Shown in pieces: positions 50,778 through 55,903 of a DNA stretch of 64,000 bases (positions are counted from its first letter, which is position 1; every line of letters starts with the position of its first letter). The DNA is taken from assembly GCA_009699575.1 (NCBI GenBank), contig WLNY01000004.1, positions 1 to 64,000 of the forward strand. Reading direction: 5' to 3'. The stretch comes from Actinomycetota bacterium. Its GTDB lineage: Bacteria; Actinomycetota; Actinomycetes; Nanopelagicales; Nanopelagicaceae. The notes under the pieces were generated by a model. The model saw only the letters and a program-made list of their open reading frames with translations. It made no database searches and was not told the origin of the DNA. A program made the position numbers and the translations under genes.

Positions 50778-51959
50778 ATGAAAATTCCAGCGCTCGTTTC
50801 ACCAGGTCCTGCGTTAACTGTTGATGAAGTTCGACGCTATAGCCGTCACCTGATAATTCCCGATCTTGCAATGGCTGGTCAACAACGCTTGATGAATGCC
50901 AAAGTCTTATGCGTTGGAGCCGGTGGATTGGGTTCTCCCGCATTGATGTATTTAGCAGCGGCAGGCGTGGGCACTTTGGGAATTGTTGAATTCGACACTG
51001 TTGATGAATCTAACCTGCAGCGCCAAATTATTCATGGGCAGAGCGATATTGGGAAAAGCAAAGCTCAAAGCGCAAAAGAGAAAATTGCAGAAATAAATCC
51101 ATTTGTAAAAGTCATCACCCATGAAATAAGACTTGATGTAGACAATGTTATGGATATATTTTCGCAATACGACATCATTGTTGACGGTACAGATAATTTC
51201 GCTACTCGCTACTTAGTAAATGATGCATGCGTTCTTCTCAAGAAGCCTTATGTCTGGGGTTCGATATATCGCTTTGATGGTCAGGCGAGTGTTTTTTGGG
51301 CAGAGTATGGCCCGTGTTACCGATGCCTTTACCCGGAGCCACCGCCACCTGGAATGGTGCCAAGCTGCGCTGAAGGAGGAGTACTCGGTGTTTTGTGTGC
51401 TTCCATTGGATCGATTCAAACAACAGAAGCAATTAAAGTTATTACCGGTATCGGTGATCCACTAGTTGGATCACTGATGATTTATGACGCGCTTGATATG
51501 AGTTATCGTAAAATAAAAGTTCGCAAGGATCCCAATTGTCCCTTGTGTAGCGAGAACGCAACTCAACGAGACTTGCTTCCTGACTACGAAGCCTTTTGCG
51601 GAGTTCTTTCTAATGAAGCCGAACTCGCAGTAAAGGACTCGACAATCTCAGTCAAAGAATTAAAAGAAAAAATGGACAAGAATGAGGATTTCCTTCTCAT
51701 TGACGTTCGCGAGCCAAGTGAATTCGAAATAGTTCGTATTCCTAATTCAATTTTGATTCCAAAGCAAGGCTTTCTTGACGGAAGCGCGCTTTCGCAATTG
51801 CCGCAAGATAAGCCCATAATTCTTCATTGCAAATCAGGTGTTCGATCTGCCGAGTGTCTAGCAATTCTTAAAAATGCTGGCTTTGCTGGTGCAACACACG
51901 TGAGCGGCGGAGTGGTGGCGTGGGTAAAACAAATTGATCCATCGTTACCGGTGTACTAA
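50778..51959 (+). CDS. moeZ: MoeZ-type adenylyltransferase/sulfurtransferase (ThiF-rhodanese fusion)
   Basis: E1-like enzyme that adenylates and thiolates the C-terminal glycine of sulfur-carrier proteins (for molybdopterin, thiamine or cysteine synthesis). 393 residues. The ThiF/MoeB domain shows VLCVGAGGLGSPALMYLAAAGVG, the R-Q-IIHG segment and two zinc-binding CxxC pairs (CYRC and CPLC). The C-terminal rhodanese domain (about 290-390) has the active loop CKSGVRS. Start ATG at 50778 has AGGATGG a few bases upstream; earlier in-frame codons do not fit the family. It shares one base with mshB. Confidence 0.92.
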   Translation: MKIPALVSPGPALTVDEVRRYSRHLIIPDLAMAGQQRLMNAKVLCVGAGGLGSPALMYLAAAGVGTLGIVEFDTVDESNLQRQIIHGQSDIGKSKAQSAKEKIAEINPFVKVITHEIRLDVDNVMDIFSQYDIIVDGTDNFATRYLVNDACVLLKKPYVWGSIYRFDGQASVFWAEYGPCYRCLYPEPPPPGMVPSCAEGGVLGVLCASIGSIQTTEAIKVITGIGDPLVGSLMIYDALDMSYRKIKVRKDPNCPLCSENATQRDLLPDYEAFCGVLSNEAELAVKDSTISVKELKEKMDKNEDFLLIDVREPSEFEIVRIPNSILIPKQGFLDGSALSQLPQDKPIILHCKSGVRSAECLAILKNAGFAGATHVSGGVVAWVKQIDPSLPVY

Positions 51960-52825
51960 TGACTAAGAACTACTCCGGCTATCGAATGCTTTTAGTACAT
52001 GCACATCCAGATGATGAAACTATTAACAACGGTGCGACCATGGCCATGTACGCAGCACTTGGGGCTGATGTCACACTCATGACGTGTACTCGAGGCGAAG
52101 AGGGTGAAGTTTTAGTCTCAGACCTCTCTCATTTAGCAAGTGCACACAACGATCTACTAGGGGCGCATCGAGAGCTCGAACTGGCAGAAGCAATGAAAAT
52201 GCTTGGTGTTACTGATCATCGTTTTCTTGGCCAAGGAAGTACCGTGTTTAGAGATAGCGGCATGATGGGTTCGCCTCAAAACGAGCGGCCCGATGTTTTT
52301 TGGCAAGCTGATGTCGATGCAGCAGCAACTCTGCTTGTTGACGTAATCGAGGAAATAAAGCCGCACGTCTTGATTACATATGATGAATTTGGTGGTTACG
52401 GACACCCTGACCATATTCAGGCTCATCGAGTTGCCATGAGAGCCGCAGAATTATCAGATTGGGCAATTCAGAAAATCTACTGGAACGCGATGCCGAAATC
52501 TGTTCTAGCTGCTGGGATGGAAAAGATGAAAGAAATTGGTTCAGATTTTTTTGGTGCTGAGAGCATTGATGACATTCCATTTGCCAAAGATGACGAACTC
52601 GTTACTTCAGTCATTGATGGAAACGAATATGTCCATGCAAAAATGGATGCAATGAAAGCACATGCAACCCAGATAGCTTTGGATGGACCCTTTTTCGCAC
52701 TCTCAAACAATCTTGGCCTGGAAATTTGGGGACACGAGTACTACAGCCTTGTTCGTGGGGTCAAGAGCGCACCATTTGATGACAATGGGCGAGAATTAGA
52801 TTTATTTGCAGGAATTCAGATCTAA
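51959..52825 (+). CDS. mshB: N-acetyl-glucosaminyl-inositol deacetylase (mycothiol synthesis)
   Basis: Deacetylates GlcNAc-Ins in the mycothiol pathway, the main low-molecular-weight thiol of Actinobacteria. 288 residues. The zinc site is HAHPDDE at the N-terminus with GYGHPDH near residue 146, and TCTRGEEGE and the C-terminal GHEYYSLVRG are typical of MshB rather than of Mca. It is followed immediately by a small membrane protein gene (as in mycobacteria) and faces the CysRS-like gene. Confidence 0.92.
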   Translation: MTKNYSGYRMLLVHAHPDDETINNGATMAMYAALGADVTLMTCTRGEEGEVLVSDLSHLASAHNDLLGAHRELELAEAMKMLGVTDHRFLGQGSTVFRDSGMMGSPQNERPDVFWQADVDAAATLLVDVIEEIKPHVLITYDEFGGYGHPDHIQAHRVAMRAAELSDWAIQKIYWNAMPKSVLAAGMEKMKEIGSDFFGAESIDDIPFAKDDELVTSVIDGNEYVHAKMDAMKAHATQIALDGPFFALSNNLGLEIWGHEYYSLVRGVKSAPFDDNGRELDLFAGIQI

Positions 52826-53137
52826 GTGAAATCAATTTATGCCCTCATTGCCGGAGCCTTTGCAGGAATTGCTGCAATTTTTTTACACCTTATTTTGCCT
52901 CCATTAGGAGTCATGTTCGCGATTATTGGCAGTGCGTTAACCGTGTGGGCCGTAGGAAGATTTTTCGGACTACGCCGCTATAAAGCAATTGCAGTTGCTG
53001 GATGGCTGCTTCCCATAATAAAGGGAGCATCTCTTGGAGTGGGCAACGAACTTCTCATTCAAGGTAACCCGCAAGGGGCAGCACTTGTATTTCTCGGAGT
53101 GTTTCTATTAGTAATTTTGATTTTCTTCCCAGCCTAG
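52826..53137 (+). CDS. Small membrane protein conserved after mshB (DUF6113-like)
   Basis: A 103-residue protein of four hydrophobic segments with short loops. GTG follows the mshB stop with no gap, so the two are co-translated. A small membrane protein at exactly this place is conserved in Actinobacteria (mycobacterial Rv1171; DUF6113 in streptomycetes). Function is unknown. The family name is assigned by position and topology. Confidence 0.65.
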   Translation: MKSIYALIAGAFAGIAAIFLHLILPPLGVMFAIIGSALTVWAVGRFFGLRRYKAIAVAGWLLPIIKGASLGVGNELLIQGNPQGAALVFLGVFLLVILIFFPA

Positions 53138-54507
53138 CGCCACTGCCACTCTTGAGACTGAGGCAAATCTTTTATCTCGAGTCCAAAGTTTTCGAGTTTT
53201 TCGCGAAGTTCATCACTGAGTTTCCAATTTTTCTCACTTCGTGCGATTTCACGGGCCGCAAGTAACTCATGTGCTTCCTGTGGCAATTCGGCGGCTATTT
53301 CACCTCGTAAAAGGTCAAGAGCAATTAATTGTTCGGCATATTTGAAAATTCCCACTTTTTCGATTGGAGAAATCTCACTATCTTTTTCAACGACTCGAAG
53401 ACGGGAAATTACTCGAGGCATATCTAAATCAGTCATTACTGCTTTCAATATTTCTTGGTCTTGCAAAATTGGCGCGTCAGGCCCCCATTCTTGCAATTTT
53501 TTGCGCCAGCGTTTTATTGTTACTTGAGCAGCTTTAATTGAATCCCAAGAAAGATCCATCTGCGATCGGTATCTATTCTCTAAAAAACATAACCTGAGTG
53601 AAAGTGGATCTATTCCGCGTTCTAAAAGATCGCTCACGAGTACAACATTTCCTGCACTTTTCGACATCTTTCGACCTTCAAAAAGTAGGTGTTCACCGTG
53701 GAGCCACAGGTCAACACTTTCACCGCCGGTTATTGAATTGGTCTGAGCCCTTTCGTTTTCATGATGTGGAAAGCGCAGGTCTATGCCTCCAATATGAACA
53801 TTTATTTTCGGTCCTAAGAAATGTAGCGACATCGCAGAACATTCAATGTGCCACCCTGGAAAACCTGGTCCCCAAGGTGAATCCCAAATCATTTTCGTAC
53901 GAGTACCAGCAAATTTCCATAGGGCCCAATCGGCATGAAAACGTTTCGCTCCACCCTCAGTAAATTCGTATCGATGGCCAGGTTTGAGTGCATCTAAGCG
54001 GTTACCGCTAATCGCGCCGTAACTTTCAAATGATTGAGCGCTAAAATAGACGCTCTTATCGTCGCCGACATAGGCATTGCCCTGTGAAATTAATTGAGAA
54101 ATCAGAGCGTGCATCAGTTCTATAGATTCACTTGCCCGAGGGTATGACTGTGCAGATTCAATATTGAGCAATGCCAAATCGCCATGAAATTTCTCTTCAT
54201 ATTTTCGTGCAACTGCAAATGGATCTATTGATTCCGCCTGAGACTGCAACAACATTTTATCTTCATTGAGATCTTCAGACATATGGCCGACATCTGTAAT
54301 GTTTTGAATTATTTTCACGTTCTTGCCGGTAGCACGAATTGCACGAGTGACAAGATCTCCCAGGAGAAAAGTTCGCATATTTCCAACGTGGGCGTCTCGA
54401 TAGACCGTAGGTCCGCAACAGTAGATTGCAACTGATCCATCAGATTGAGTAGTAACTTGGTCAACAGTGCGCGTTTGAGTGTTGTATAGAGAGAGCACTA
54501 GCAGCAT
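53134..54507 (-). CDS. Cysteinyl-tRNA synthetase-like ligase (divergent CysRS)
   Basis: A class I synthetase-like protein of 457 residues. HIGH appears as HVGN near residue 41 and the KMSKS loop as RKMSKSAGN near 266. The zinc ligands of CysRS are present: CGPT, WHIEC and FPHHENE. The post-KMSKS helices ([22 protein letters not shown]) and the [17 protein letters not shown] stretch differ from ordinary CysRS and match a separate actinobacterial subgroup. It could be the cell's only CysRS, a second one, or a cysteine ligase with another acceptor. It is longer than MshC. It overlaps the GNAT gene by 10 bases. Confidence 0.75.
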
Positions 54508-55481
54508 TCCTCTTCTAATATATCTAGCGAAGTGAGATGAGCACGAAAGATGTATTCATGATGAAATCGAAATCCTAAGGATTCATATAAAGCAATCGCC
54601 CCTTGGTTATTTGAATCAACTTGCAGAACAGCTTGCGTAGCACTGTGTGCAGCGGCTGAATTAAGCAATTCGGATACAATGGCTTTTCCCAGCCCCATAC
54701 CTCTCATCTCTGGTGCTACATAAATTCGAGCGAGGGATGTCCACTTTTCGCATTGTGCCGTTCGCCCCACAGCAACAATCGTGCCATTTTTTGAAATTGA
54801 TGAATAGAGCGCCGGATATGAACGCATAATTTCTGCCACTCCGTGGTCATCTTGCACTTCAAGCCACGATTCATCAAATTCGCTGGATGTGTTCATCTCA
54901 AAACCCGAAGGGAGATTTACGTGAAAATTCGTTATGTCTGCAACCATGACATGGGCGCGCACTCGTTCTTTCCAGCCAAGTTTTTCAAGTGCAGAGTCGA
55001 GAGCGCTATAGGTGGGTAAGGGTAAATGAAAAATAGGCGTCAGATTTTCTTTTTTGTAATGTTCGATGACTTTAATAATTGCTTGCTCGATATCGCACCC
55101 TGGTTGACCATACGGAGCGGCGCCTTGGGGCAAGACAGAGTTGGCACGCATTGTGAATTTGCCACTGGTCCGCATCTGCCATTTACCTAGTGACTCTATT
55201 TTCGTAGGAGGCCATGTGCGCATGCAGATATCTTCTATCTCATGAATACGATGGGAGAGTGGTGCGCCAGTTCCTGCACGAGTGGGAAGTTCTTTGATCA
55301 CTCGTGAGATGGCGATATCAGAAGGAGAAAATTCGATAATTTCATTGTGCTTATTACGAAGGGTGGTCTCAGATTCCAAGACACCAACGATGTCTCGAAA
55401 ACCGCCCGAGTCTTCATGGAGACGGATAGTGATGCGTTTGCCCACATGCGCACCCAGGCCTGACTCAGTGTGAGATCCCAT
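54498..55481 (-). CDS. GNAT-family N-acetyltransferase with N-terminal auxiliary domain
   Basis: A 327-residue protein. The last 130 residues are a GNAT fold with ARIYVAPEMRGMGLGKAIVSELL as the acetyl-CoA-binding motif A and ALYESLGFRF as motif B. The first 190 residues contain a small beta domain (RITIRLHEDSGGFRDIVGVL) and a weakly GNAT-like region, resembling mycobacterial Rv0428c-type proteins. Two GNAT-like halves are also a feature of mycothiol synthase MshD, but I cannot assign it. It is translationally coupled to the CysRS-like gene and has a leaderless promoter. Confidence 0.75.
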   Translation of the reverse strand: MGSHTESGLGAHVGKRITIRLHEDSGGFRDIVGVLESETTLRNKHNEIIEFSPSDIAISRVIKELPTRAGTGAPLSHRIHEIEDICMRTWPPTKIESLGKWQMRTSGKFTMRANSVLPQGAAPYGQPGCDIEQAIIKVIEHYKKENLTPIFHLPLPTYSALDSALEKLGWKERVRAHVMVADITNFHVNLPSGFEMNTSSEFDESWLEVQDDHGVAEIMRSYPALYSSISKNGTIVAVGRTAQCEKWTSLARIYVAPEMRGMGLGKAIVSELLNSAAAHSATQAVLQVDSNNQGAIALYESLGFRFHHEYIFRAHLTSLDILEEECC

Positions 55482-55582: not shown

Positions 55583-55903
55583 GTGACTTATGTGATTGCA
55601 GAACCATGCATCGATGTAAAGGACAAATCCTGCATCGAAGAATGTCCAGTGGACTGTATTTACGAGGGCGATCGCATGCTGTACATACAGCCTGATGAAT
55701 GCGTGGATTGTGGAGCATGTGAACCTGTGTGCCCTGTCGAGGCAATTTATTACGAAGATGATATTCCACCGGTCTGGAAAGACTACAAAAAAGTTAACGA
55801 CGAATTTTTTGTTGAACTTGGTTCACCAGGTGGCGCTGCCAAGATTGGTCCAACACATCGTGACCATGAAGATGTAGTCGCAATTCCAACAAAGAGCGAG
55901 TAA
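55583..55903 (+). CDS. 7Fe-8S ferredoxin
   Basis: Electron carrier of 106 residues. The first cluster motif is C-x7-C-x3-CP ([14 protein letters not shown]) and the second C-x2-C-x2-C-x3-CP ([12 protein letters not shown]), giving one 3Fe-4S and one 4Fe-4S cluster, as in mycobacterial FdxC. The start is GTG with a GGAGG site 7 bases before. It is followed closely by dapC, a conserved pairing. Confidence 0.93.

Follow-up and report, generated by a model that had tools for sequence, protein, structure and literature searches.

A probable second cysteinyl-tRNA synthetase with a changing SH3-like neighbour in freshwater acI actinobacteria

What does a gene resembling a cysteinyl-tRNA synthetase (CysRS) do beside an acetyltransferase gene and close to the mycothiol gene mshB? 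A sequence-only reading had suggested that synthetase-like ligase and acetyltransferase could belong to a previously unnoticed thiol or cysteine-conjugate pathway, and had left room for a true but divergent CysRS. We analysed the surrounding window of 64,000 nucleotides (G000:C34:1-64000), which comes from a genome of 1.39 Mb that is 85% complete. The host is a freshwater acI actinobacterium, whose nearest named relatives include Candidatus Planktophila and Nanopelagicaceae. Our answer is that the gene, here called cysS2, probably encodes a catalytically complete second CysRS (CysRS2), which is likely to charge ordinary tRNA-Cys(GCA) as a conditional or stress isoenzyme beside the housekeeping CysRS. 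The features of the locus are the following.

51959 to 52825, forward strand: mshB, convergent with cysS2 (TIGR03445, 352 bits)
52826 to 53137, forward strand: membrane-type open reading frame of 103 amino acids between mshB and cysS2; a DUF6113 homologue lies there in other families
53134 to 54507, reverse strand: cysS2, predicted second cysteinyl-tRNA synthetase (CysRS2) of 457 amino acids (TIGR00435, PF01406 and PF23493)
53146 to 53289, reverse strand: CysS_C, C-terminal anticodon-binding domain, CysRS2 residues 407-454 (PF23493, 6.6e-11; equivalents of R427, D436 and D451 invariant)
54265 to 54288, reverse strand: insert GHMSEDLN, CysRS2 residues 74-81, after NITDV (alignments against 6ujd, 3sp1 and 1li5)
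54498 to 55481, reverse strand: SH3-GNAT gene, 327 amino acids, 5' of cysS2, Rv0428c/cg3035 family (PF24553, NF049894)
54534 to 55259, reverse strand: tandem GNAT core, residues 75-316 (AlphaFold model; matches to tandem GNAT folds)
55290 to 55445, reverse strand: SH3-like N-terminal domain of the GNAT, residues 13-64 (strands at 16-61 in the model)
55583 to 55903, forward strand: fdxA ferredoxin gene, divergent from the SH3-GNAT-cysS2 unit (NF045480, 180 bits)

The two genes had been described as translationally coupled. Both reading frames are indeed there and share 10 bases; such an overlap fits coupling, which is thus a prediction. The two-part architecture claimed for the GNAT is borne out by an AlphaFold model (pLDDT 91), in which an SH3-like N-terminus precedes a tandem GNAT core. 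The pair does not lie directly against mshB, as had been stated. The 103-amino-acid reading frame, which overlaps the end of cysS2 by 4 bases, intervenes, and mshB is a convergent gene rather than an immediate neighbour. Since mshB and cysS2 stand tail to tail, they share neither a promoter nor an operon.

Were cysS2 the only cysS of the genome, the earlier reading noted, it would just be the housekeeping CysRS gene. It is not. The genome carries three genes of the CysRS superfamily, a housekeeping cysS (C49), mshC (C45) and cysS2 (C34), and a match to MshD over the cut-off lies on C20. Because canonical cysS, mshC and mshD are all found elsewhere, cysS2 is not the housekeeping gene and the pair in the window is separate. 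In several other acI genomes the MshD matches are confined to the C-terminal half of the model and score below its cut-off (G014:C1:116307-116807, G015:C1:1244535-1245029, and matches in G002, G216 and G275), which suggests a shortened MshD in these bacteria.

Several lines of evidence indicate that CysRS2 is a synthetase in the strict sense. It exceeds the cut-off of the cysS model TIGR00435 (372.3 bits against 340) and falls well short of that of the MshC model TIGR03447 (226.5 bits against 485.1). In an alignment of 113 CysRS2 proteins the class I motifs are kept as HVGN (HIGH-type) and KM(S/A)KS (KMSKS), and H37/G39 and K266/K269 (E. coli numbering throughout) are conserved at 99-100%. The synthetase zinc ligands, which the earlier reading had noticed in the window copy, prove to be general: C28, C209, H234 and E238 are present in all 113 sequences as well as in the window. 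So are the anticodon contacts R427, D436 and D451 (100%), whose role as tRNA contacts we take from the 1U0B complex. The structure search started from an AlphaFold model of L017, a relative with the fused form (pLDDT 89.8). The best match of this model is E. coli CysRS in the tRNA-Cys complex 1U0B, over the full length including the anticodon domain (Z 47.2, 438 residues), while the match to MshC (3C8Z, Z 43.5) stops before that domain. The gene is also under strong purifying selection (dN/dS 0.03-0.10). The suggestion of a true but divergent CysRS in the earlier reading is therefore supported: the cysS model, the conserved residues and the full-length fold all agree with it. CysRS2 would activate cysteine with ATP at the zinc site and transfer it to the ordinary tRNA-Cys(GCA) of the cell, as an isoenzyme used conditionally or under stress next to the housekeeping CysRS. 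Of the accounts of its function, a conditional isoenzyme is the simplest. Charging of tRNA in the cell and conditional use are the most likely reading of these sequence features; even with the contacts conserved, CysRS2 could have an acceptor different from tRNA-Cys.

How does CysRS2 compare with known enzymes? With E. coli CysRS (CysS, 1LI5/1U0B) it shares the fold, the zinc site, both class I motifs (HIGH-type and KMSKS) and the anticodon domain. Unlike that enzyme it is a second copy, carries a GH-x-x-x-D-L insert and often has an SH3-like domain upstream or fused to it. The CysRS of Elizabethkingia (6UJD, the best PDB sequence match) and Borrelia (3SP1) have the insert after NITD as well, whereas E. 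coli CysRS lacks it; both are annotated simply as CysRS, while in Actinomycetes CysRS2 comes as an extra gene. MshC shares the fold of the catalytic core but has neither the anticodon domain nor E238, the fourth zinc ligand. CysRS2 is only 32-34% identical to the CysRS native to the acI lineage. Duplicated synthetases with special roles have precedents (reviewed in PMC9437257). One of them, CysRS* of Desulfobacterales, serves cysteine insertion at opal codons and likewise accompanies a housekeeping CysRS (PMC9437257). It has no anticodon domain, and its partner is a SelC-like tRNA; CysRS2, in contrast, keeps the domain, and ARAGORN found no partner tRNA in G015, a near-complete relative (1.36 Mb, 99.7% covered).

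That genome has a single tRNA-Cys(GCA), and a single close copy is also present in nearly all of 61 genomes of the family, with or without CysRS2 (the exceptions are G384 with two copies and two genomes with no match). A dedicated second tRNA-Cys is thus found neither in G015 nor as a rule in the 61 genomes, although a very divergent one would escape these searches. There is no apparent link to sulfur assimilation either. PAPS reductase occurs in 4 of 13 genomes with CysRS2 versus 2 of 7 without it, and cysK/M is present in all of them.

The distribution of CysRS2 is uneven. With a threshold of E <= 1e-137, from which the remaining genomes are clearly set apart (E >= 1e-70), CysRS2 occurs in 67 of 394 genomes sampled from the class. 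The family of the window accounts for 35 of these (out of 42 sampled), and 12 further families for the other 32 (out of 352 sampled elsewhere; the counts were made by hand). Nonomuraea is among the carriers of the clade. Genomes of acI bacteria (about 1.3 Mb) have shed most duplicates, yet the 35 members of the window's family retain an extra CysRS at a constant position, although a single tRNA-Cys is the rule. Explaining why would inform us on how abundant lake bacteria load cysteine under stress. As far as a tree made with a quick method can tell, CysRS2 is a deep clade of its own (100% SH-aLRT) that stands apart from both actinobacterial CysRS and MshC, the latter also forming a clade with 100% SH-aLRT. 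The nearest lineages in this tree, on long branches, are CysRS of Andersenbacteria, Thaumarchaeota, Verrucomicrobia and Delongbacteria. Within one set of four genomes, identity is 75-85% for the housekeeping CysRS1, 60-70% for CysRS2 and 57-64% for MshC. CysRS1 thus evolves more slowly than CysRS2, the pattern expected for a housekeeper and an accessory enzyme. We found no report of two CysRS or of cysS2 in acI bacteria in the open-access literature.

Some copies have decayed or changed. The CysRS2 clade includes two degenerate copies (L263 and L264). In two genomes of family f17, CysRS2-derived genes (L280:5825-6991, reverse strand; L281:6483-7610, forward strand) have lost HIGH, KMSKS and the anticodon domain; they are probably pseudo-enzymes or repurposed proteins. 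In G001 a frameshift or stop interrupts cysS2 (L027:1501-2830), which makes it either a pseudogene or the product of an assembly error.

What stands upstream of cysS2 varies among relatives. Among 117 distinct loci we find SH3-GNAT in 29, a stand-alone SH3 gene of 60-66 residues in 34, an in-frame N-terminal fusion of SH3 to CysRS2 in 24 and no detectable SH3 in 30 (mostly from distant families; four are acI). The fusions have no stop between the two parts, and in 6 of the 24 neither the junction nor the first 12 core codons contain ATG, GTG or TTG. Fusions might be mere by-products of deletions that removed an intervening GNAT, with no functional meaning. We consider this possible but less likely than not: the ancestral order SH3-GNAT-cysS2 makes fusion likely upon deletion, and SH3 also persists alone in genomes without CysRS2. 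It fits less well that the starred branches of the tree require the fused state to have been gained or lost at least five times and that the fused SH3 is still recognisable in every fused lineage (HMM scores of 52-91 bits). A shared physical role of SH3 and CysRS2 is plausible on these grounds. Where SH3 is unfused beside CysRS2 its dN/dS is about 0.03-0.2, and in one genome pair without CysRS2 it is about 0.07 (dN 0.030, dS 0.461); hence SH3 is functional in its own right. Its persistence under selection where CysRS2 is absent means that the tie between the two may be loose. SH3 is also optional, since four acI loci do without it and it persists without CysRS2. It would be an accessory domain, probably helping to hold RNA or a partner. 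In the L017 model the linker from SH3 to CysRS2 has low confidence, so that domain packing is unreadable there. Occurring separate, coupled or fused beside one synthetase, the domain gives a ready-made set of cases in which to test how tRNA synthetases gain accessory domains.

Against SH3_Rv0428c (PF24551, gathering score 27) a stand-alone SH3 protein reaches 26.7 bits and the GNAT of L225 22.3 bits, both just below the threshold, and the copy in the window's GNAT does not appear among matches at E 0.001. Some acI genomes that lack CysRS2 have a stand-alone SH3 mini-gene of 66-72 amino acids between mshB and fdxA, conserved from one genome to another (L265:578-778, forward; L266:1413-1613, reverse; L267:631-849, forward; L268:603-821, forward).

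Could CysRS2 do something more special than charge tRNA-Cys in reserve? It might be a copy for zinc starvation or for resistance to an inhibitor, which would be particular forms of the isoenzyme reading. In proteobacteria, CysRS paralogues under Zur control that retain the zinc ligands have been predicted (PMC2770081). Between fdxA and the GNAT, however, there is no Zur-like box, and the window has no more matches than chance would give; conserved intergenic words look like promoter elements. Near-universal retention in small acI genomes is also unlike a sporadic resistance gene, and we regard this version as unlikely. It is rather improbable, too, that CysRS2 and the SH3 mini-protein make up a dedicated tRNA-Cys charging unit, apart from the CysRS of translation, which feeds some other process of streamlined aquatic actinobacteria and uses SH3 for specificity or docking. 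Paralogous synthetases are known to serve tRNA-dependent GNAT-fold ligases (PMC2922099), and with a GNAT coupled to cysS2 in the window, CysRS2 might in the same way supply Cys-tRNA to a non-ribosomal acceptor. This we think very unlikely, because the GNAT belongs to the Rv0428c/cg3035 acetyltransferases, is usually not beside CysRS2 in acI relatives and also occurs without it. The GNAT scores 81 bits against a gathering score of 27.2 for PF24553 (Rv0428c GNAT family) and aligns over its whole length with NF049894, the cg3035-type N-acetylglutamate synthase; as this score (121.2 bits) lies below the cut-off of 280, synthase activity is only a candidate. In the main reading the core is a separate acetyltransferase of the Rv0428c/cg3035 type that is at the locus by chance.

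The least probable reading is the one that the locus first invites, in which CysRS2 ligates cysteine in a pathway of its own for a thiol or cysteine conjugate and the GNAT performs an MshD-like acetylation there. CysRS2 does match the MshC model weakly (226 bits), the GNAT core is tandem as in MshD, and mshB is close by. Against the MshD model TIGR03448 the GNAT reaches 32.4 bits, with a cut-off of 163.1. The anticodon domain and tRNA contacts of CysRS2 are entirely conserved, the GNAT is not beside CysRS2 in any SH3-only or fused locus, and the genome has its mshC and mshD elsewhere. Gene order decides the rest. Conservation in relatives, which had been proposed as a check, is clear: dapC-fdxA-[SH3/GNAT]-cysS2-mshB is kept across acI, and also in several other families, where cysS2 and mshB are separated by a VanW-like gene and DUF6113. 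In acI genomes without CysRS2, mshB, the 103-amino-acid reading frame and fdxA are still together, with a stand-alone SH3 gene (G024, G354, G216 and G338) or SH3-GNAT (G275, G307, G331 and G405) at the locus. In G042, which has a Streptomyces-sized genome, the GNAT adjoins fdxA. Because genomes without CysRS2 keep the same order, the proximity to mshB predates CysRS2 or is independent of it and is ruled out as functional evidence. The neighbourhood is an old shared gene order that does not indicate a role in mycothiol synthesis.

Two further observations concern tRNAs and CysRS domains in relatives. In G015, tRNA-Leu(CAA) (778614-778687, L156) and tRNA-Leu(UAA) (1166905-1166980, L176) have apparently short variable arms, which is unusual for leucine tRNAs. 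In G014, a protein of about 300 amino acids (L190:1104-1994, forward strand) begins with some 45 residues like the CysRS anticodon-binding domain and continues with what resembles, by eye, a family-2 glycosyltransferase; tRNA genes lie nearby, and other acI genomes contain a similar match to the C-terminal domain of CysRS.
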